Shown here piece after piece: positions 850-9,647 of a DNA stretch of 64,000 nt. The DNA is from Sulfurospirillum halorespirans DSM 13726 (GTDB lineage Bacteria > Campylobacterota > Campylobacteria > Campylobacterales > Sulfurospirillaceae), in contig NZ_CP017111.1 of the NCBI RefSeq assembly GCF_001723605.1, positions 2,232,001-2,296,000 on the forward strand. The letters run 5' to 3'. Under the pieces are notes generated by a model that was not told the origin of the DNA, made no database searches, and saw nothing but the letters and a program-made list of their open reading frames with translations. A program made the position numbers and the translations under genes. Position 1 is the first letter of the stretch; each line of letters begins with the position of its first letter.

Positions 850-2184
850 TTAGCAATTTTTACTCAAAAATTCTCTAATTTTCTGAATCATATACGCTAT
901 AGCTTCATCTCCCATACCAGGATAGAGTCCAATCCAAAAGCTATCGTTCATGATCTTATCCGTATTGGGAAAGGTCCCTACAACCCTATAGTCTGTATCT
1001 TGTGTAAGAGCCTCAAACAGTGGGTGTCTAAGCATATTGCCAGCAAACAGATTGCGTGTTTGAATATTATTGTTTTCTAAATATTCGACAAGGTCATTTC
1101 TTGTAAATTTTGCGTCTCTAGTCAGCGTCATCATAAAACCAAACCAACTTGGATCACTCAGTGGTTGTGTCTCAACCAAGGTTAATTCGTGAACATCTTT
1201 AAGACCCTCATAGAGTTTTTTGAAATTCTCTTTTCGTTTTTCCACGAAGCTTGGAAATTTCTTTAGTTGCGCACATCCAACGGCGGCTTGCATATCCGTT
1301 GCTTTAAGGTTAAAGCCAAAATGGCTATAAACATATTTATGATCGTACCCTTTAGGCAAAGTTCCAAATTTTTGGGTAAATCTACATCCACAGGTATTAT
1401 CGACACCGCTCTCACACCAGCAGTCTCTTCCCCAATCACGCATTGAGAGCATAATCTTTTTAAGAAGCGGATTATCAGTATAAGTAGCGCCGCCCTCTCC
1501 CATCGTCATGTGGTGTGGAGGATAAAAACTACTCGTTCCAATATCACCCCACGTACCGGTTAGTTTGCCTTCATACGTTGAGCCAAGAGCATCGCAGTTA
1601 TCTTCAATGAGCCATAGATTGTGTTTATCACAAAATGCTTTGACCGCTTTAATATCAAAAGGATTACCAAGGGTATGGGCTATCATCACCGCTTTTGTTT
1701 TGGGGCTAAGTGCTTGTTCTAATTGGGTCACATCAATGTTAAAATGTTTAAGTTCCATATCGACAAAAACAGGCACTGCACCATATTGGACAATAGGTGC
1801 TACGGTCGTTGGAAAACCTGCTGCTACTGTGATGACTTCATCACCATGTTTGACTTGTCGCTCTTTTAAAAGAGGTGAAGTTAAAGCGTAAAACGCCAAT
1901 AAATTGGCAGAACTCCCACTGTTAACTAAGAATGCCCATCTTACATGTAAAAACGTTGCTAACTCTTTTTCAAACTTTTTAGAGTAATCTCCATACGTCA
2001 ACCAAAAATCAAGGGAGCTATCGACAAGATTGACCATCTCTTTTTCGTCAAAGACACGCCCTGCATAATTAACGCGACTTTGTCCTGAAACAAATGGTTT
2101 AGTTTGATTTTTTTTATGAACGAGCTCATAATACTCTTTTGTTTTATCTAAAATCTCTTGTTTAAGCTGTTGCTCTTTTGTCAT
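850..2184 (-). CDS. rfbH: CDP-4-keto-6-deoxy-D-glucose 3-dehydratase (E1, RfbH/AscC/DdhC)
   Basis: This 444-residue aminotransferase-fold enzyme uses PMP and a [2Fe-2S] centre to remove the C3 hydroxyl of CDP-4-keto-6-deoxyglucose, the committed step to 3,6-dideoxyhexoses. Two hallmarks are visible. The usual PLP lysine is replaced by histidine (YPPHHMTMGEGG, H224/H225). The cluster cysteines have exactly the E1 spacing C-x57-C-x1-C-x7-C (C197, C255, C257, C265). The start is the ATG at 2184, which overlaps the upstream stop as TAATG. An in-frame upstream extension lies inside the preceding gene and is rejected. The reductase partner (E3, AscD/DdhD) is not in the window. One TTACATGTAA lies at 1941, read as FLHVR. 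Confidence 0.93.
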   Translation of the reverse strand: MTKEQQLKQEILDKTKEYYELVHKKNQTKPFVSGQSRVNYAGRVFDEKEMVNLVDSSLDFWLTYGDYSKKFEKELATFLHVRWAFLVNSGSSANLLAFYALTSPLLKERQVKHGDEVITVAAGFPTTVAPIVQYGAVPVFVDMELKHFNIDVTQLEQALSPKTKAVMIAHTLGNPFDIKAVKAFCDKHNLWLIEDNCDALGSTYEGKLTGTWGDIGTSSFYPPHHMTMGEGGATYTDNPLLKKIMLSMRDWGRDCWCESGVDNTCGCRFTQKFGTLPKGYDHKYVYSHFGFNLKATDMQAAVGCAQLKKFPSFVEKRKENFKKLYEGLKDVHELTLVETQPLSDPSWFGFMMTLTRDAKFTRNDLVEYLENNNIQTRNLFAGNMLRHPLFEALTQDTDYRVVGTFPNTDKIMNDSFWIGLYPGMGDEAIAYMIQKIREFLSKNC

Positions 2185-3104
2185 TACTTGCCTTTCCACA
2201 TTGTATCTATTGCTTTTAAATACGGATCTTTTTTTATGGTTTGTATATCTAAATTTTCTAAATTCTCTTGAAAATAACATCTCATCTTTGCTATTGCATT
2301 TTTATGAGATGTAAACTGAAAATCTCCAAGCTCTTTTAAAAGACGCTCATTATTTGAAGTATACTCGTTATTGAGTCCTTCATTGATGACTTTTATCTCT
2401 GATTGAAAATCGCTGACTTCATTCACTAAGTTTGATAATGTGATCAGATCTACTTTCGTTCCTGTCGTCACATTGTAAATCTTCTCTCTGACATCGTGAT
2501 GGATAAAAAAGTCGATCATTTTAACTAAATCATCGATATAAATATAGTCGAAATAGACATTTTTATTGATCGTTATAGGCAAATGTAAAAGATTTTTAAT
2601 AATGGCATTTGAAATAAATTTATAACGATAATTTTCATACTCGCCGTATGCCCCAAAAATCCGTAATTGAACGATATTTGGAGATCTTTCAATATAGTGC
2701 GACGTAATAGATTTATAAAATCCATACTCATCGAGTGGCAATGCTCTCAAATAATCGTCTTCTTTTGCATTTATAATGGGTTTATGCTTGCCATACTCGG
2801 CACCACTACCAAAAGAGATGATTTTCTTTACGTTTGTTTCATGTTTAGCAATATTGAAAAAAATTCGTAAATTGTACTCTGTAACGCTTTTCATATCAAC
2901 GGTATCACGTCCACCACCACGATTGGCGGTATGAACTATAATGTCTATTTGATTCTCTAAAATATAGGTATCGACTGCTTGCTCATTACTTAAATCAAGC
3001 TCTTTACTTGATGGGGTAAACAATAGATATTTGCAATGTTGTAATAAATATTTTTTCAGATGAGAACCTACAAAACCATTAGAACCTGTTATAAAAATAT
3101 TCAT
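2184..3104 (-). CDS. NAD(P)-dependent sugar epimerase/reductase (extended SDR)
   Basis: A 306-residue extended SDR. The nucleotide-binding motif GSNGFVGSH is at residues 7-15, and a YxxxK active site (YGFYK) lies near residue 131. It sits between a second SDR and rfbH, with an ATGA overlap upstream and a TAATG overlap downstream, so it is translationally coupled to the CDP-sugar genes. By position it could reduce C4 of CDP-3,6-dideoxy-4-ketohexose, as abequose or paratose synthases do, or reduce the side-chain ketone left by the carboligase, as YerF does in yersiniose synthesis. The sequence alone does not fix the substrate. The gene is AT-rich and has no copy of the dispersed palindrome. Confidence 0.8.
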   Translation of the reverse strand: MNIFITGSNGFVGSHLKKYLLQHCKYLLFTPSSKELDLSNEQAVDTYILENQIDIIVHTANRGGGRDTVDMKSVTEYNLRIFFNIAKHETNVKKIISFGSGAEYGKHKPIINAKEDDYLRALPLDEYGFYKSITSHYIERSPNIVQLRIFGAYGEYENYRYKFISNAIIKNLLHLPITINKNVYFDYIYIDDLVKMIDFFIHHDVREKIYNVTTGTKVDLITLSNLVNEVSDFQSEIKVINEGLNNEYTSNNERLLKELGDFQFTSHKNAIAKMRCYFQENLENLDIQTIKKDPYLKAIDTMWKGK

Positions 3105-4138
3105 ACCAAATTCTTTTCAAACCACTTTATAGATTTATTTAAAGCGTCATCAATATCTACTCTAATTTCTAAACCTAAGTCTTGCTTGACATAGTTAATA
3201 TTTGGAACAAATTCGGAACAATGATCATTCATGTTCAATATTTCTATGCTTAAACTACTTCCAATAATATTTTTTATTTTAACGGCAACTTCTTCAAGAG
3301 AAATTCCCATATCACTCCCCAGATTATATGCTGCACCACTTTTACCATGTATTAACATATTTAAAATCCACAATGCCATATCTGTAGGATACATATAACT
3401 TCGAACTGGTTTCCCGTTTCCTAAAATTCGAATATTTTTTGTTTTTAAAGCATCTCTTATAAAACTATTGACCGCCCAAGGTTTATTGAGACTCATATAA
3501 GGTCCTATAAAAGAGAAGGGACGTACTTGAACAATAGGGAGTTTATACAAGCTTCTATATGCATTTGTAAGAGTTTCAGCATATCGCTTCGCCTCTGGGT
3601 ATATAGTTGAAATGCTATTACAATTTAATTTACCAAAATCATTTTCAGTAATATTATGACTATCCAATGAACCATAAACTTGCCCTGAACCAAGGTGTAC
3701 AATTTTTTCTAATTTTTCTAACAATAAGGCATTTTCCATACTGTTTTTTGTACCATCTGTAATAATATTCATTGATTCTATTGGATTAGACATATAAATT
3801 CTATTATCTGGTGAGCTTGCAGCATGAATAATATAGGCAATATCTTTAGAAAATTCACGAACATTTCTAATATCATTTTTAATGAAAATGATATCTTTAC
3901 GATTATTCACTAAAACTTCTAAATTACTTGTAATATGTCTAGCAATAAGATACAACGTAATATTAAAATTGTATGTATCGTTTAAAAATATTAATAACTG
4001 TGTTAGCCATGTACCAATAAAACCACTACCGCCTGTAATTAAAATTTCTTTATTTTTTAATTTTTCAAGATTTGAGATATCTTTTTCTGTTAAAGTAAAC
4101 AAATCAAATCCTTTTTTGCAATTTAAGTGCGATATCAA
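3101..4138 (-). CDS. NAD-dependent epimerase/dehydratase (extended SDR)
   Basis: A 345-residue extended SDR with a lead of about 30 residues before the Rossmann motif GGSGFIGTW. It has an active-site YxxxK (YPEAK) near residue 180 and a conserved RPFSFIGPY segment after it, as in sugar-nucleotide dehydratases and decarboxylases. Translation most likely begins at TTG 4138, inside the last 35 bases of the aldolase gene. Its end overlaps the next SDR by ATGA. As the second SDR of the branched-sugar block it is a candidate reductase or epimerase for the ketone formed by the TPP enzyme, but the exact reaction cannot be told from sequence. Confidence 0.78.
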   Translation of the reverse strand: MISHLNCKKGFDLFTLTEKDISNLEKLKNKEILITGGSGFIGTWLTQLLIFLNDTYNFNITLYLIARHITSNLEVLVNNRKDIIFIKNDIRNVREFSKDIAYIIHAASSPDNRIYMSNPIESMNIITDGTKNSMENALLLEKLEKIVHLGSGQVYGSLDSHNITENDFGKLNCNSISTIYPEAKRYAETLTNAYRSLYKLPIVQVRPFSFIGPYMSLNKPWAVNSFIRDALKTKNIRILGNGKPVRSYMYPTDMALWILNMLIHGKSGAAYNLGSDMGISLEEVAVKIKNIIGSSLSIEILNMNDHCSEFVPNINYVKQDLGLEIRVDIDDALNKSIKWFEKNLV

Positions 4139-5111
4139 TTATAGTATCTTCTTGTCCAGCAACTACTTTTTGCCGTCCAAGCTCCATAAAAATATCGCGT
4201 GGATCTACATTAAATTCTTTAGCAACTCTTTTAACATGTTTTGCAAACCCTGAAAAAACACCAGCTATTGCACTAACAATACTCAATGATGAAATCGTAA
4301 TGGGCTCTTTTATAAAATCCTTTTCTACTATATCAGCCGTATCCAATAGCTTATATAAATCAATATTTGTCTTATAATTCATTTTTTGAAGTACTGCAGC
4401 TAAAACTTCTAGCTGTGCATTTCCCGCGCCTGCACCAAAACCTTTCGTTGCACCATCTATAATTTGTGCTCCTGCTTCAATAGCAACAAGGGAGTTTGAA
4501 ATTCCTAAGCCTAAATTATTATGAGCATGAAAACCGACAGGAACATTTAGATTTTGTGATAAGAGAGTAATTCTTTCTTTAACATCATCAGGCAAATAGC
4601 TACCTGCAGAATCTAAGATAATGATTGCTTCAGCTCCATATGTTTGCATCTTAATTGCTTCATCAAGTAAAGTTTCTGGACTTGCCATATGACTCATCAT
4701 TAAAAGGCCATAAGCTTCTTTACCTTTTTCCCGAACATAACCAAGATGGCGCTCAGTGATATCTGCTTCTGTACAATGACTCGCAACTCGCACAATATCA
4801 ACGCCCCAAGACAGAGCTTTTTCTATATCCTTTTTAATGGTTGCAAATCCAGGTATAACATGAATTCCCAATTTTGTATGCTCTAAATTACTTTTGGCAG
4901 TTTTAAGAAGAACTTCATCACTTAACTGGCTTTTTCCAACAAGAACAGAGGATGCACCTAATCCATTACCATGTCCAACTTCTACGGCATATATTCCTGT
5001 TTGATCTATCGCCTTTGTATAGTGCTCTATTTGTGAAATAGTAAGTTGATGAGAAATAGCATGAGAACCATCTCTTAATGTCACATCATAAAGATTGATT
5101 TTATTTGTCAT
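4104..5111 (-). CDS. mhpE: 4-hydroxy-2-oxovalerate aldolase
   Basis: A 335-residue HMGL-like TIM barrel of the BphI/MhpE/DmpG family, which reversibly joins pyruvate and acetaldehyde to 4-hydroxy-2-oxopentanoate. The signature LYDVTLRDGSHA opens the protein (base R and metal D), and the metal histidines are in GFHAHNNLG. A C-terminal domain of the kind that docks the dehydrogenase is present. The start is ATG 5111, behind a strong GGGAGG, overlapping the dehydrogenase gene by 11 bases. In aromatic catabolism the pair works in the cleaving direction. No meta-cleavage genes are present here, so a synthetic role feeding the adjacent TPP carboligase is inferred. Confidence 0.92.
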   Translation of the reverse strand: MTNKINLYDVTLRDGSHAISHQLTISQIEHYTKAIDQTGIYAVEVGHGNGLGASSVLVGKSQLSDEVLLKTAKSNLEHTKLGIHVIPGFATIKKDIEKALSWGVDIVRVASHCTEADITERHLGYVREKGKEAYGLLMMSHMASPETLLDEAIKMQTYGAEAIIILDSAGSYLPDDVKERITLLSQNLNVPVGFHAHNNLGLGISNSLVAIEAGAQIIDGATKGFGAGAGNAQLEVLAAVLQKMNYKTNIDLYKLLDTADIVEKDFIKEPITISSLSIVSAIAGVFSGFAKHVKRVAKEFNVDPRDIFMELGRQKVVAGQEDTIIDIALKLQKRI

Positions 5112-5979
5112 GGGAAACCTCCCTATTCTTAGCAAATTCTTCAGCTAGGGCTATTGCAGCAGAATTAATAATATCTAAATTACCTGCGTATTTAGGAAGA
5201 TAGTCACCTAATCCTTGTACTTTAATAGATAAAATAACTAAACCATTATCATATACTGGATCAAGAGACAAAGAGTACCCTGGAACATAAGACTGAATAG
5301 TTGCTACCATTTTTTTTACCTCAGAGGTAATCAAATCCATATCTGGTTTATTGATTTTTAGATAAATTGTAGTATTCATATCAATACTAGGCTGTGCTGG
5401 ATTTAAATTTATAATTACTTTTACATTTTGACAACCGCTGAAGTGCGATAATGCTTTCTCTGTTGTTTCGATATATTCATCTATATTGGCTCTAGTCCCT
5501 GGGCCAGCACTTTTTGATGCGATAGTTGATACAAGTTCAATATATTCTATATTTTTTACAATTTTACTAACAGCATATGCAATAGGAATAGAAGCTTGCC
5601 CTCCGCATGTAATCATATTAAGATTATCATATTTCAAAGCTTCTTCTAGGTTTACAGAAGGAATAGTAAAAAGTCCGAGTTTTGCAGGTGTTAAGTCAAT
5701 AACTATTTTATTTAACTGCTTTAAAATGGGTGCATGCACCTTGTGACTTGACGCAGAAGTTGCATCAAATACCAAATCACAACACTCTGGCTTTTCTACA
5801 ATTGCTTCTATCCCTTTGTCACTTAGTGGAACACCAAAAGACATAGCTTTTAACATGCCTTTAGAATTTAAGTTTCTCCCTGAAAACAAAGTACACTGCA
5901 AATATGGAGATCTAGAAATTTTAATCAATAAATCAGTTCCTATATTTCCTGTACCAATAATAGCAACCTTTAATTTCAT
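5101..5979 (-). CDS. mhpF: Acetaldehyde dehydrogenase (acylating)
   Basis: A 292-residue enzyme of the MhpF/BphJ/DmpF family interconverting acetyl-CoA with NADH and acetaldehyde. The Rossmann motif GTGNIGTD is at residues 9-16. The catalytic cysteine lies in MITCGGQAS, about residue 129, and the family motif KSAGPGTRANIDEY follows. The family's usual length is about 300. It starts at ATG 5979, three bases after the TPP-enzyme stop, with a GGAG inside that gene. It overlaps the aldolase start, matching the channelling complex these two enzymes form elsewhere. Here it would supply acetaldehyde from acetyl-CoA for the aldolase. That direction is inference from context. Confidence 0.92.
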   Translation of the reverse strand: MKLKVAIIGTGNIGTDLLIKISRSPYLQCTLFSGRNLNSKGMLKAMSFGVPLSDKGIEAIVEKPECCDLVFDATSASSHKVHAPILKQLNKIVIDLTPAKLGLFTIPSVNLEEALKYDNLNMITCGGQASIPIAYAVSKIVKNIEYIELVSTIASKSAGPGTRANIDEYIETTEKALSHFSGCQNVKVIINLNPAQPSIDMNTTIYLKINKPDMDLITSEVKKMVATIQSYVPGYSLSLDPVYDNGLVILSIKVQGLGDYLPKYAGNLDIINSAAIALAEEFAKNREVSHDK

Positions 5980-5982
5980 AGG

Positions 5983-7767
5983 TTAAAACTCCATATTGAT
6001 ATTTTCTTCGTACTCACTTCTTGGCAAGAACGGAAACATATCATCGTATGGCATAGAAACCATTTTCCCATCATCCAATTTTTTAGAAGCAACCCTAGGT
6101 ATCAATAATTGATTTGTAGGTGTCATAACTTCAAAAATAACAGGCCCATTATAGGCAATAAGCTCTTTTATCTTTTCATTCATTTCACCAATATTTGATA
6201 CACCGATATATTTAATTCCATACAACGTAGCCACTTTTTCCATAGATGGAGTGGAAACGCCAGTTGCGCTGCTTTCCCCTATAAGTCGGCCTTCCATAAA
6301 ATTATTTTGAGTATGTCGTATTAAAAGGTAGCCATTATTATTTAGAATAATTGTTTTTATCGGTAGATTATAATAGGCAATTGTTTGAAATTCTTGTAAA
6401 TTCATCTGTATAGAACCATCACCACTAATACAATAAACATCTTTTCCTTCATCCTTAGCCGACGCTGCTACACCAATAGAAGCAGGACTATAACCCATCG
6501 TTGAAAGTCCACCTGTAATAATATGTCTTTGACCAAATTTGATTTTAAATGCTTGTGCATGAACATGAAAACACGACCCCGTATCTGTAACAATGACAGC
6601 ATTTTTATCTAAATATTCTGAAAAAACTCTCATAAAATGATAGGAATTAACCCCTTCTGTTTCATTGACATATTCAGGTAAATCAACAGGATATTTTTCT
6701 TTCCATTCTTGCGCTTTTCTCAACCATGTGATATAAGATTCTTGATTTGGCTTAAATTGATCCAAAAGAAGTTTCATACACACTTTAACATCACACAATA
6801 CCTTAATCGCTTTATCAACAGAAGGTTTTTCAAATTCTTTTGGATCAATTTCTACAAGGATGATTTTTGAATTTGGTGCAAAGGCTTGATAATCATGTCC
6901 AATAAGACCAATACTAAGTCGAGAGCCTAATACAAGTAAAACATCAGAATTTTGCACGGTAAAATTGCCTGCCCTATCACCATATGTGCCTGGTTTGCCT
7001 ATAAAGTTGGGATGTTCATGATCTAAAATATCCATACCCATTCTTGTAGTAACGATAGGTATGCCAAATGTATCTGCAATTAAATTTGCCTCTTTTACGG
7101 CATCAGCTTGTTGTACACCAGCACCCATTAAGATAACAGGTCTTTTTGCTTTTTTTAATTCTTGAATAATTACTTCAATATTACAAGCTTTACTGTTCAC
7201 AGATGCAGTATCGGGAATAAAACCATCATACAAATCTGGATCGAATGTAGCCCCTTGTATATCAAGAGGACATTCAATCCACACTGGTCCAAATGGAGCT
7301 TGATGCGCCATAAAAATAGCTTTTTCTATATTGTATTTTATTTTACGAATATCATCTAAAATAACTGCAAATTTAGTTACTTGCTCAAAGATAGGTAATG
7401 TATTAAACCCTTGTAAAGAAAATTGTCTTGGAGCCGTTACGTGTACCTGTTCAACCTTAGATTGTCCCGAGACAATAATACAAGGAGATCGATCAACATA
7501 TGCACCAACCACTCCTGTTAAAGTATTGAGCGCCGCAGGGCCTGCAGTGACATAAACAACCCCTATTTTTTTAGAATATCTAGCATATGCTTCAGCAGCC
7601 ATTGTTGCGGCTTGTTCATGGTGAAAAAAGTAGGTATCTAATGTATCTTTTTGTTTATAAACAGCGTCTGTCAAGTGCATAATCATTCCACCCGTAATCA
7701 TGAAAAGTTTATTTCCACTAACTTCTGCCAATTTTTGTGTTAAATAATCTGCAACTCGAATATTCAT
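5983..7767 (-). CDS. TPP-dependent carboligase, acetolactate synthase/YerE-like
   Basis: A 594-residue protein with the three-part layout of acetohydroxyacid synthase-type enzymes: an N-terminal PYR domain with the activating glutamate (HHEQAA, E51), a middle domain of the FAD/nucleotide type, and a C-terminal TPP domain with the GDGS...NNNG Mg-diphosphate motif. The start is ATG 7767 in an ATGA overlap with rfbG, behind GGAG. A true ilvB would sit with ilvN or ilvC. Here it lies in a CDP-dideoxysugar block beside an aldolase and acetaldehyde dehydrogenase. The known analogue is YerE, which transfers a two-carbon unit from pyruvate onto C4 of a CDP-4-ketosugar. I infer a related enzyme that may use 4-hydroxy-2-oxovalerate as donor. 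Confidence 0.85.
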   Translation of the reverse strand: MNIRVADYLTQKLAEVSGNKLFMITGGMIMHLTDAVYKQKDTLDTYFFHHEQAATMAAEAYARYSKKIGVVYVTAGPAALNTLTGVVGAYVDRSPCIIVSGQSKVEQVHVTAPRQFSLQGFNTLPIFEQVTKFAVILDDIRKIKYNIEKAIFMAHQAPFGPVWIECPLDIQGATFDPDLYDGFIPDTASVNSKACNIEVIIQELKKAKRPVILMGAGVQQADAVKEANLIADTFGIPIVTTRMGMDILDHEHPNFIGKPGTYGDRAGNFTVQNSDVLLVLGSRLSIGLIGHDYQAFAPNSKIILVEIDPKEFEKPSVDKAIKVLCDVKVCMKLLLDQFKPNQESYITWLRKAQEWKEKYPVDLPEYVNETEGVNSYHFMRVFSEYLDKNAVIVTDTGSCFHVHAQAFKIKFGQRHIITGGLSTMGYSPASIGVAASAKDEGKDVYCISGDGSIQMNLQEFQTIAYYNLPIKTIILNNNGYLLIRHTQNNFMEGRLIGESSATGVSTPSMEKVATLYGIKYIGVSNIGEMNEKIKELIAYNGPVIFEVMTPTNQLLIPRVASKKLDDGKMVSMPYDDMFPFLPRSEYEENINMEF

Positions 7768-8861
7768 GATTGACTCCACTCAATATTTTTCTTTTTTGCA
7801 TCAGCAATATAAGTCTCTAAATCTTCTTTCGTCAAAATTTCATTTTTTTCGTAAAAGGCTTTATACCATTTCACGGTCTTTTCAAATGTCTTTTCACTAT
7901 CCCACACATCTTTCCAATGAAGCTTTATATGCGCTTTTGAACAATCGAGTTTTAAAAGGTTTGCTTCATGAAGCTGATTTGGATCACGATTGATTTCATA
8001 GTCAATTTTGTCCCAATGCTGCTTTACATGTAAGACAACTTCTTCAACACAGATACTTCCTTCATCACTGGGTCCAAAGTTCCAAGCTTCTGCAAATTCT
8101 ACTTTTTCTTCAAGCAGTTTTTGCCCTACATGTAAATACCCGCTAAGTGATTCAAGCACATGTTGCCAAGGTCTCGTTGCTTTGGGATTGCGGATGCTCA
8201 CTTTTTTACCTTGTGAGACAGAAAGCATAATATCTGTAATAAGTCTATCTTGCGCCCAATCTCCGCCACCAATAACATTACCGGCTCGACATGTTGCAAG
8301 CAGTGTTTGGTGAGATTTTTTATATTCTTGTATATTAAAATAAGAGTTACGATAAGAGTTGGCTAACAAGTCTGCACATCCCTTTGAAGCGCTATAAGGG
8401 TCATACCCACCCATAGGGTCATTTTCTCTATATCCCCAAATCCATTCTCTGTTTTCATAAGCTTTATCACTCGTGATATTCACAATAGCTTTGACTTGAT
8501 ATTTGCGGCACACTTCAAAGACTTTAAGCGTTCCTATCACATTGGTTTCATAAGTTTCTATCGGATTTGAATAAGAAGGTCTGACCAATGCTTGTGCTGC
8601 CAGATGAAATACGATATCTGGCTGATACGTTGCAAATGTTTTATCTAACGTTTCTAAGTCTCGTATATCGCCCATAATCGAAACAATATCGAGATCAAGC
8701 AGTGCTATATGATTTGGTGTTGTAGGTGCTTCTAGGGAGTAACCTATAACATTAGCGCCCATATGTTTTAGCCAATACACAAGCCACGAACCTTTAAAAC
8801 CTGTATGTCCTGTGACTAAAACGGTTTTATCTTTATACATTCCACCAAAAAGAGACTGCAT
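7764..8861 (-). CDS. rfbG: CDP-glucose 4,6-dehydratase
   Basis: A 365-residue extended SDR making CDP-4-keto-6-deoxy-D-glucose, the substrate of RfbH. It shows the family's opening VTGHTGFKGSW, the catalytic-type segment YDPYSASKG (YxxxK), and CRAGNVIGGGDWA, which is typical of RfbG. The start chosen is ATG 8861, which overlaps the rfbF stop as TAATG. Two upstream in-frame starts (8867 and 8876) lie inside rfbF. It carries one perfect TTACATGTAA (8024, read VLHVK) and one near copy (8127). The branched-sugar genes downstream have none, so this may mark the edge of a later insertion. Confidence 0.94.
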   Translation of the reverse strand: MQSLFGGMYKDKTVLVTGHTGFKGSWLVYWLKHMGANVIGYSLEAPTTPNHIALLDLDIVSIMGDIRDLETLDKTFATYQPDIVFHLAAQALVRPSYSNPIETYETNVIGTLKVFEVCRKYQVKAIVNITSDKAYENREWIWGYRENDPMGGYDPYSASKGCADLLANSYRNSYFNIQEYKKSHQTLLATCRAGNVIGGGDWAQDRLITDIMLSVSQGKKVSIRNPKATRPWQHVLESLSGYLHVGQKLLEEKVEFAEAWNFGPSDEGSICVEEVVLHVKQHWDKIDYEINRDPNQLHEANLLKLDCSKAHIKLHWKDVWDSEKTFEKTVKWYKAFYEKNEILTKEDLETYIADAKKKNIEWSQS

Positions 8862-9634
8862 TACCATACTTTCCATGGAGCTTTGTTCTCTTTCCAGAGT
8901 TTATTGAGTTTTTGATTATCTCTTAGGGTATCCATCGGTTGCCAAAACCCTTCATGTTTATAGGCAAACATCTCGCCATCTTTAGCTAAATTTTGTAATG
9001 GAGCTTGCTCAAACACACAACTTTCATCTTCACTAATATAATCAAATACCTTAGGTTCACAGACAAAGAAACCTCCATTGATCCATCCAGCTTCTGTCTT
9101 TGGTTTTTCTATAAAACTTTTGATATTCATCATCTCATCAATCGCAAGATTTCCAAATCTGGCCTCTGGTTGAATCGCTGACATCGTGAGGGCTTTTCCA
9201 TGCTTTTGATGAAAGGCTACCGTTTTTGCAATATCAATATCACTCACGCCATCTCCATAGGTCAATAAAAAAGGCTCGTCTCCTATATACTTCTGAGCAC
9301 GTTTAATACGACCCCCAGTCATAGTATCAAGACCTGTATCAACAAGGGTGACTTTCCACGGTTCACTGGTGTTGTTGTGAACTTGCAAACTATTGGTTTG
9401 AAGATCTATTGTGACATCACTTTGGTGTAAAAAATAGTTCGCAAAATATTCTTTAATGTAATAGCCTTTGTATCCAAGAAGGACAACAAATTCATTAAAG
9501 CCATAATGGGAATAAATCTTCATGATATGCCACAATATGGGCTTACCACCAATCTCAACCATTGGTTTTGGTTTAAGATCCGTCTCTTCTGAAATACGTG
9601 TTCCATATCCACCTGCTAATAATACGACTTTCAT
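8861..9634 (-). CDS. rfbF: Glucose-1-phosphate cytidylyltransferase
   Basis: A 257-residue nucleotidyltransferase joining CTP and glucose-1-phosphate to CDP-glucose, the first step of the CDP-dideoxysugar route. The N-terminus holds LLAGGYGTRISEET and the sugar-phosphate lysine segment KPKPMVEIGGKP, both typical of RfbF. The metal and substrate motif YGDGVSD lies near residue 128. The ATG at 9634 is preferred over the TTG just before it, with AGGAT upstream. It is directly followed by rfbG with a one-base overlap, giving the conserved rfbF-rfbG order. Confidence 0.95.
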   Translation of the reverse strand: MKVVLLAGGYGTRISEETDLKPKPMVEIGGKPILWHIMKIYSHYGFNEFVVLLGYKGYYIKEYFANYFLHQSDVTIDLQTNSLQVHNNTSEPWKVTLVDTGLDTMTGGRIKRAQKYIGDEPFLLTYGDGVSDIDIAKTVAFHQKHGKALTMSAIQPEARFGNLAIDEMMNIKSFIEKPKTEAGWINGGFFVCEPKVFDYISEDESCVFEQAPLQNLAKDGEMFAYKHEGFWQPMDTLRDNQKLNKLWKENKAPWKVW

Positions 9635-9647
9635 CAAATAATCCTAC

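Follow-up and report, generated by a model that had tools for sequence, protein, structure and literature searches.

An operon of Sulfurospirillum halorespirans that probably makes an erwiniose-type branched sugar, with a DmpFG-like aldolase and dehydrogenase as candidate donor makers

Sulfurospirillum halorespirans DSM 13726 carries, in a stretch of 64,000 nucleotides that we call the window (positions 2,232,001-2,296,000 of its 3.03 Mb single-contig genome, NZ_CP017111.1), an operon of eight closely spaced minus-strand genes (850-9637 in window positions) that probably makes a cytidine diphosphate (CDP)-linked ten-carbon sugar of the erwiniose type, branched at C4. The operon encodes RfbF, RfbG and RfbH, a thiamine diphosphate (ThDP)-dependent enzyme resembling YerE, two extended short-chain dehydrogenases/reductases (SDR1 and SDR2), and relatives of the acylating acetaldehyde dehydrogenase DmpF and the 4-hydroxy-2-oxovalerate aldolase DmpG, hereafter the DmpF/G pair.

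Family-model and Pfam scores recovered on the minus strand every enzyme type named in a preliminary description of this DNA (Table 1). That description had spoken of nine genes and had given 2184-9634 as the interval of the whole set; we count eight genes, seven of them inside that interval and RfbH outside it. Neighboring open reading frames (ORFs) of the operon overlap, except that 3 bases separate the ThDP gene from the dehydrogenase gene. The true starts of the aldolase and of RfbH are probably the ATG codons at 5111 and 2184, respectively. In the dehydrogenase-aldolase pair the HMGL-like barrel (PF00682), PF07836 and the dimerisation domain (PF09290) all score above their cut-offs, and the dehydrogenase matches the PDB entries 7z3s (292.9 bits) and 1nvm_B (246.4 bits). 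RfbF, RfbG, SDR2 and RfbH are 76-81% identical to their counterparts in a Sulfuricurvum metagenome-assembled genome (MAG; L044, where L and G numbers designate the loci and genomes compared).

Table 1. Genes of the operon and two codons of the aldolase, in window positions
Feature	Position	Strand	Assignment
RfbF, glucose-1-phosphate cytidylyltransferase	8861-9637	-	TIGR02623, 424.7 bits (cut-off 300.25)
RfbG, CDP-glucose 4,6-dehydratase	7764-8876	-	TIGR02622, 480.7 bits (cut-off 278.45)
YerE-like ThDP enzyme (ErwE type)	5983-7779	-	Pfam TPP N, M and C domains; nearest structure 8rph
DmpF-type acylating acetaldehyde dehydrogenase	5101-5979	-	TIGR03215, 384.5 bits (cut-off 282.25)
DmpG-type aldolase with DmpG_comm domain	4104-5135	-	TIGR03217, 391.3 bits (cut-off 286); PF07836, 88 bits
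Codon of aldolase His92 (numbered from the TTG at 5135)	4860-4862	-	BphI Leu87 / DmpG Leu88 by alignment
Codon of aldolase Phe294 (numbered from the TTG at 5135)	4254-4256	-	BphI Tyr290 / DmpG Tyr291 by alignment
SDR1, extended SDR	3101-4138	-	PF01370, 110.1 bits
SDR2, extended SDR	2184-3104	-	PF01370, 91 bits
RfbH, CDP-6-deoxy-4-hexulose 3-dehydrase	850-2280	-	NF011936, 729.1 bits (cut-off 423)

From these gene identities and the conservation and residue patterns described below, we infer a direction, donor, stereochemistry, product and carrier as follows: 1) RfbF, RfbG and RfbH would yield CDP-4-keto-3,6-dideoxyglucose; 2) the DmpF-type enzyme would reduce acetyl-CoA to acetaldehyde; 3) the DmpG-type aldolase would join acetaldehyde and pyruvate into 4-hydroxy-2-oxopentanoate (4-hydroxy-2-oxovalerate), perhaps in its (4R) form; 4) the ErwE-like ThDP enzyme would decarboxylate this acid and place a 3-hydroxybutanoyl unit on C4 of the sugar; 5) an SDR, most likely SDR2, would reduce the branch ketone to give a 1,3-dihydroxybutyl branch; 6) the sugar would enter a lipid-carried surface glycan or a protein-linked one. 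Six carbons of the hexose and four of the decarboxylated donor add up to ten; hydroxyls are predicted on the third carbon of the branch and where the ketone had been, and positions 3, 6 and 8 of the octose name would be deoxygenated. By its name, 3,6,8-trideoxy-4-C-[(R)-1-hydroxyethyl]-D-gulo-octose, erwiniose would have the 7R configuration, which would fit a (4R) donor. Excerpts of PMC8657720, PMC9912281 and PMC9671505 describe erwiniose as a ten-carbon branched sugar present in the exopolysaccharide of Pectobacterium atrosepticum and in O-antigens of strains of this species and of Erwinia carotovora.

The best structural match of the ThDP enzyme is 8rph, at 360.7 bits as against 210.4 bits for the top acetolactate synthase, in a comparison with PDB sequences to which YerE itself did not belong; 8rph is JanthE, a YerE-like enzyme, according to excerpts of PMC12188165. 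ErwE of P. atrosepticum, for which a 2025 review (PMC12247030) cites Steitz et al. 2022 (Angew. e202113405), is reported there to refuse pyruvate and acetaldehyde and to prefer 4-hydroxy-2-oxobutanoate, -pentanoate and -hexanoate; YerE, according to the same review, uses pyruvate by preference and adds two carbons. The reported ErwE preference supports the idea, already voiced in the preliminary description, that the dehydrogenase and aldolase make 4-hydroxy-2-oxovalerate for the ThDP enzyme, an idea further backed by the gene content of an ErwE-like locus and by the clustering of DmpF/G-bearing loci on a tree of ThDP enzymes (both below). The same description knew of no described gene set for such a sugar; the key ThDP enzyme, at least, is published, and the donor idea, well supported as it is, was not new for the ThDP step. 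We looked by eye for a donor-pocket signature common to these ThDP enzymes and found none: the motif reads GPAALN in the group of the window, GPGATN in L123 and GPGGTN in several others, and because it varies among groups it was dropped as a marker.

Family models label the ThDP enzyme acetolactate synthase-like (349.4 bits with TIGR00118, under the cut-off of 538.35), which would allow the operon to be read as an ordinary acetolactate synthase and a DmpF/G remnant of aromatic catabolism that came by chance to lie among sugar genes. We find this scarcely credible: the enzyme stays under the cut-off of all 25 NCBIfam models shown, no other operon gene is of a degradation kind, the gene set is conserved in other genomes, and the genome encodes two further TPP enzymes (570 and 578 residues) that match TPP_enzyme_C more strongly. 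We reject an ordinary acetolactate synthase because of the scores and the gene context, and a catabolic DmpF/G operon because the remaining operon genes are sugar-nucleotide genes.

To find the locus of ErwE we searched 392 genomes from a single enterobacterial family, to which RcsF-bearing genomes had led us; two of the 392 (G851 and G1075) have a ThDP enzyme that matches with E 1e-90 or better. In the 5.0 Mb genome G851 the locus, L123, encodes RfbF (60% identical to that of the window), RfbG (53%), RfbH (52%) and the ThDP enzyme (40%), and in the same gene run DmpF (57%), DmpG (60%) and SDR1 (37%), along with a 311-residue SDR and an HpcH/HpaI-type aldolase. It holds relatives of seven of the eight window genes, with another SDR in place of SDR2; encoded upstream is a protein of 323 residues whose N-terminus we take as that of an RfbI-type reductase. 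We infer that G851 is a P. atrosepticum-like genome: it has five pectate lyase matches, three of them in tandem, and its asparaginase is identical across 327 residues to PDB 1zcf, which we take to be the Erwinia carotovora/P. atrosepticum asparaginase. Since G1075 likewise has pectate lyase matches, these alone are not decisive for the species; its locus (L124) has no DmpF/G or RfbF/G match and one remote RfbH-like match (23%).

Among 397 genomes of the window's own phylum, searched with the ThDP enzyme at E 1e-110, fourteen carry it, that of the window included. The full eight-gene set is present in the same order in two of the 13 other loci, L021 (85-95% protein identity to the window) and L022 (53-81%; here a small additional ORF separates the SDRs). 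Ten have RfbF, RfbG, RfbH, SDR2 and a ThDP enzyme 37-41% identical to that of the window, with other genes in place of DmpF/G (in L030 SDR2 is split in two pieces), and the remaining one, L033, has DmpF, DmpG and the ThDP enzyme and lacks RfbG and RfbH. A wider survey took the 80 best loci in named genomes out of at least 583 relatives and recovered an aldolase match above 190 bits in five: a Methanoregulaceae archaeon MAG (L034), Endomicrobiellum (L036), Clostridia (L037), Omnitrophica (L038) and Bdellovibrionales (L098). DmpF was also seen in these, except on the cut contig of L036, and L034, L037 and L038 have near-full sets, with RfbG just 30% identical in L034 and L038; MAG contigs may be misbinned, a caution that applies above all to the archaeal L034. 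L163, from the class of an Accumulibacter genome, combines RfbF, RfbG, DegT-type aminotransferase, SDR1-like, DmpF, DmpG and ThDP genes. The neighborhood search for the dehydrogenase-aldolase-ThDP-rfbH set that the preliminary description proposed turned up such sets both within the phylum and beyond it. In the genome of S. halorespirans itself the operon aldolase is the single DmpG_comm match. Because the same eight genes recur in the same order in L021 and L022, and most of them in other phyla, the gene set is more than chance. We regard the operon as real and conserved, and probably as a biosynthetic one of the erwiniose kind.

We then placed the ThDP enzymes on a tree of 96 rows, comprising the window and 95 of 96 loci (L035 was left out, its contig ending within the ThDP gene), and labeled as DmpF/G-bearing any row with a DmpF match above 150 bits or a DmpG match above 120 bits anywhere in the locus DNA. 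All 11 labeled rows, including the window, fall in one part of 17 rows, while the remaining 79 rows contain no labeled one. The label changes 4 times on the tree against a mean of 10.6 for shuffled labels, and none of 500 shuffles came as low, a test that speaks to clustering only; the placement of the long branches L033, L123, L124, L163 and L053 is unsure. This distribution bears on a yersiniose-type alternative, in which the ThDP enzyme takes pyruvate to give an eight-carbon sugar and DmpF/G merely balance acetaldehyde and pyruvate. Pyruvate is the substrate of YerE (PMC12247030), and JanthE, the nearest structure, accepts it too (excerpts of PMC12188165). We nonetheless consider this alternative quite improbable, as the DmpF/G loci group together among the ThDP enzymes and are found again in several phyla, the pair also lies beside the ErwE-like gene, whose enzyme reportedly refuses pyruvate, and the DNA of 85 of the 95 related loci has no DmpF/G (in 18 of these 85 the ThDP gene is 3 kb or less from the locus end).

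The alignment of the window aldolase with DmpG shows that Arg17, Asp18, His21, His200 and His202, the catalytic and metal residues of the latter, are all conserved. The Leu and Tyr that control stereochemistry (87 and 290 in BphI) are absent, with His and Phe in their places, and we accordingly class the protein as a DmpFG relative and not as the catabolic (4S) enzyme. Excerpts of PMC3962088 and PMC4012138 state that the DmpG ortholog BphI produces and accepts exclusively (4S)-4-hydroxy-2-oxopentanoate, that its Y290F variant loses stereocontrol, and that L87N/Y290F or L87W/Y290F cleaves the (4R) form alone. The position of Tyr290 is Phe in all 11 aligned aldolases of ThDP clusters (that of L098/L125, in two ORF pieces, was left out of the residue count), and that of Leu87 is His in six, Tyr in three, Phe in one and Leu in one (L033).

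The 30 aldolases compared with these were drawn from two sources: 1) all 17 matches in genomes, namely 14 with Leu/Tyr, L146 with His/Phe, L147, and L148 (the last under the family cut-off), of which L146 was found inside a ThDP cluster and shifted to that group; 2) 14 of 281 plasmid records, hand-picked from 60 rows at even steps, whose annotated neighbors were read and which comprise the first six rows (four Phe/Phe, two His/Cys) and eight others (all Leu/Tyr). Leu/Tyr, as in DmpG, is found in 22 of the 30, among them all eight from plasmid loci with degradation-type neighbors (the type is clear for six loci and less clear for L159 and L161). Of the other eight, L147 has Ile/Tyr and L148 has Phe/His, while four plasmid loci of streptomycetes have Phe/Phe and two of roseobacters His/Cys. 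On the aldolase tree the window protein belongs to a group of 17 rows, with support 99, that is separate from the catabolic type and unites the ThDP-cluster aldolases with the six from streptomycete and roseobacter plasmids; the Tyr changes 2 times and the Leu 3 times on this tree. The substitutions are thus mostly common by descent, and the 11 rows are not 11 events; given a single separate group that includes plasmid aldolases, this is for the most part an old, inherited change that is not limited to sugar clusters. The plasmid relatives themselves, all of which are devoid of the stereo-controlling Tyr, are encoded beside ketoacyl synthase and/or carrier-protein genes in streptomycetes (L149, L151, L153 and L154) and beside ATP-grasp and aminotransferase genes in roseobacters (L150 and L152), and are seemingly other non-catabolic uses of the pair.

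By analogy with the designed variants we put forward, tentatively and with some doubt, a two-part proposal: Phe290 together with His, Tyr or Phe at 87 (BphI numbering) might act natively as L87N/Y290F and L87W/Y290F do, so that the sugar-cluster aldolases would make (4R)-4-hydroxy-2-oxopentanoate and set the side-chain hydroxyl of erwiniose-type sugars; and exchangeable cassettes round a ThDP-SDR2 core might supply various 2-oxo acids for a family of branched sugars. The Phe/altered-Leu pattern of the ThDP-cluster aldolases is apparently new to the literature searched. The residues also bear on the length of the donor. ErwE is reported to accept four-, five- and six-carbon 4-hydroxy-2-oxo acids (PMC12247030), and the pair could supply 4-hydroxy-2-oxobutanoate or -hexanoate for a branched sugar of nine or eleven carbons. 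Replacement of BphI Leu89 by Ala favors longer aldehydes (excerpts of PMC3962088); with Ile at this position, the pocket of the window aldolase seems not to be enlarged. Moreover, P. atrosepticum is reported with ten-carbon erwiniose (excerpts of PMC8657720), and the genome taken for that species has the same DmpF/G pair. We therefore regard a donor of another length as unlikely, and a ten-carbon sugar as the probable product.

SDR1 and SDR2 both keep the Ser-Tyr-Lys triad. SDR1 lacks the Asp-Glu pair, which is typical of 4,6-dehydratases, and its PDB sequence matches are UDP-glucuronate decarboxylases and dehydratases; SDR2 has no match among PDB sequences at 1e-12. In the route to yersiniose A a ketoreductase acts after YerE. 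SDR2 is matched in 12 of the 13 other loci of the phylum, ten of which carry cassettes other than DmpF/G, and being common to clusters with different cassettes it is most likely the reductase of the branch ketone. The best SDR1 matches (218 bits or more) lie in the DmpF/G loci L021, L022, L034, L098/L125 and L123. That SDR1 is exclusive to DmpF/G loci is refuted by matches in loci devoid of the pair (L043, 199 bits; L049, 173; L083, 167; L063, 151; L079, 145; L061, 144; L024, 127), with which the 167 bits of the DmpF/G locus L163 are comparable; the tie of SDR1 to DmpF/G is therefore loose.

Several observations weigh against an erwiniose-type pathway of this kind. The ThDP enzyme of the operon is just 40% identical to the ErwE-like protein, which forms a long branch outside the inner clade of the window, and the HpcH/HpaI-type aldolase of L123 (8319-9101, between RfbH and the ThDP gene; below cut-off in each of four listed NCBIfam models) could be the donor maker there. 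Six rows of the 17-row part of the ThDP tree (L039, L053, L023, L024, L107 and L124) have no DmpF/G in the DNA examined, and DmpF/G pairs occur elsewhere (L149-L154) in seemingly biosynthetic settings where no ThDP enzyme is in view. Erwiniose seems to require a single reductase, but the operon has two SDRs. A search of the S. halorespirans genome at E 1e-5, run without a positive control, gave no relative of the presumed RfbI-type reductase.

Other cassettes occupy the place between the ThDP gene and SDR2 in related loci. In L025, L026 and L028 an SDR, an AroB-related 'cyclizing' phospholyase and an HpcH-like protein replace DmpF/G; the families were tested in L028 only (TIGR04425, 471.5 bits, cut-off 400), and L025 and L026 were assigned by the likeness of their sequence starts. 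This cassette suggests a ring-closed branched sugar, of which bradyrhizose and caryose come to mind. L027, L029 and L030 have a HAD-type phosphatase (tested in L029) and a protein resembling the HpcH-like one of L028, a combination that could form an aldol product carrying a phosphate group and afterwards remove the phosphate. The cassette of L031 and L032 consists of an HMGL-like 275-residue protein and an FkbM-type methyltransferase (tested in L031), and that of L023 and L024 of a class I/II aminotransferase (tested in L023). In L033 (8185-11845) DmpF, DmpG and the ThDP enzyme lie amid split transketolase, radical SAM and cytidylyltransferase/PfkB genes, and this donor module seems to serve a different sugar.

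To the left of the window are genes for a 435-residue protein that resembles a flippase but matches no Pfam family, for glycosyltransferases of the GT2 and GT4 families with a WbpM-like dehydratase between them, and for an STT3/PglB protein. The PglB-type oligosaccharyltransferase (L166:5083-7245, in the same genome) has its STT3, core and C-terminal domains all above cut-off, and since it belongs to the same glycan locus the glycan that contains the branched sugar may be attached to protein as well as to lipid.

If the proposed pathway is correct, a catabolic aldolase-dehydrogenase pair has been reversed to make a sugar building block, DmpF/G are tied to donor supply for erwiniose-type sugars, and the gene set reaches past Pectobacterium to the phylum of the window, an archaeal MAG and several other phyla. 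A two-residue rule might then help to distinguish such aldolases in genome data from their catabolic relatives. For biocatalysis, a native (4R)-selective member of the DmpG class would be useful; in the excerpts of the literature found, such enzymes were made by design. Our literature search recovered no paper linking 4-hydroxy-2-oxovalerate aldolase to a cluster of this kind; it did not cover Steitz 2022, Krug 2024, Lanza 2024 or Rombouts 2009, so that an earlier description of the full cluster, with DmpF/G, is possible.

Among known systems, the ErwE/erwiniose locus of the genome taken as P. atrosepticum is like the window in uniting a YerE-like ThDP enzyme with RfbF/G/H and relatives of DmpF, DmpG and SDR1, and differs in its HpcH/HpaI aldolase, its presumed RfbI-type reductase, a 311-residue SDR for SDR2 and another gene order. 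The YerE route to yersiniose A in Yersinia pseudotuberculosis shares the CDP-4-keto-3,6-dideoxyglucose acceptor and ThDP chemistry at C4 (PMC12247030), but uses pyruvate as donor, adds two carbons and requires no aldolase-dehydrogenase pair. DmpFG and BphIJ of meta-cleavage pathways share with the window pair its family, communication domain, and catalytic and metal residues; the latter is set apart by its presumed synthetic direction, by Phe for Tyr290 and His for Leu87, and by its separate tree group. MMAR_2332 of Mycobacterium marinum, which acts in the caryophyllose system, is again a YerE-like enzyme, with a donor preference reported to be similar to that of ErwE (PMC12247030). Caryophyllose has, according to excerpts of PMC7821131, a hydroxylated six-carbon chain on ring C4, unlike the four-carbon branch proposed for the window, and by analogy it may follow the same logic with a longer donor.

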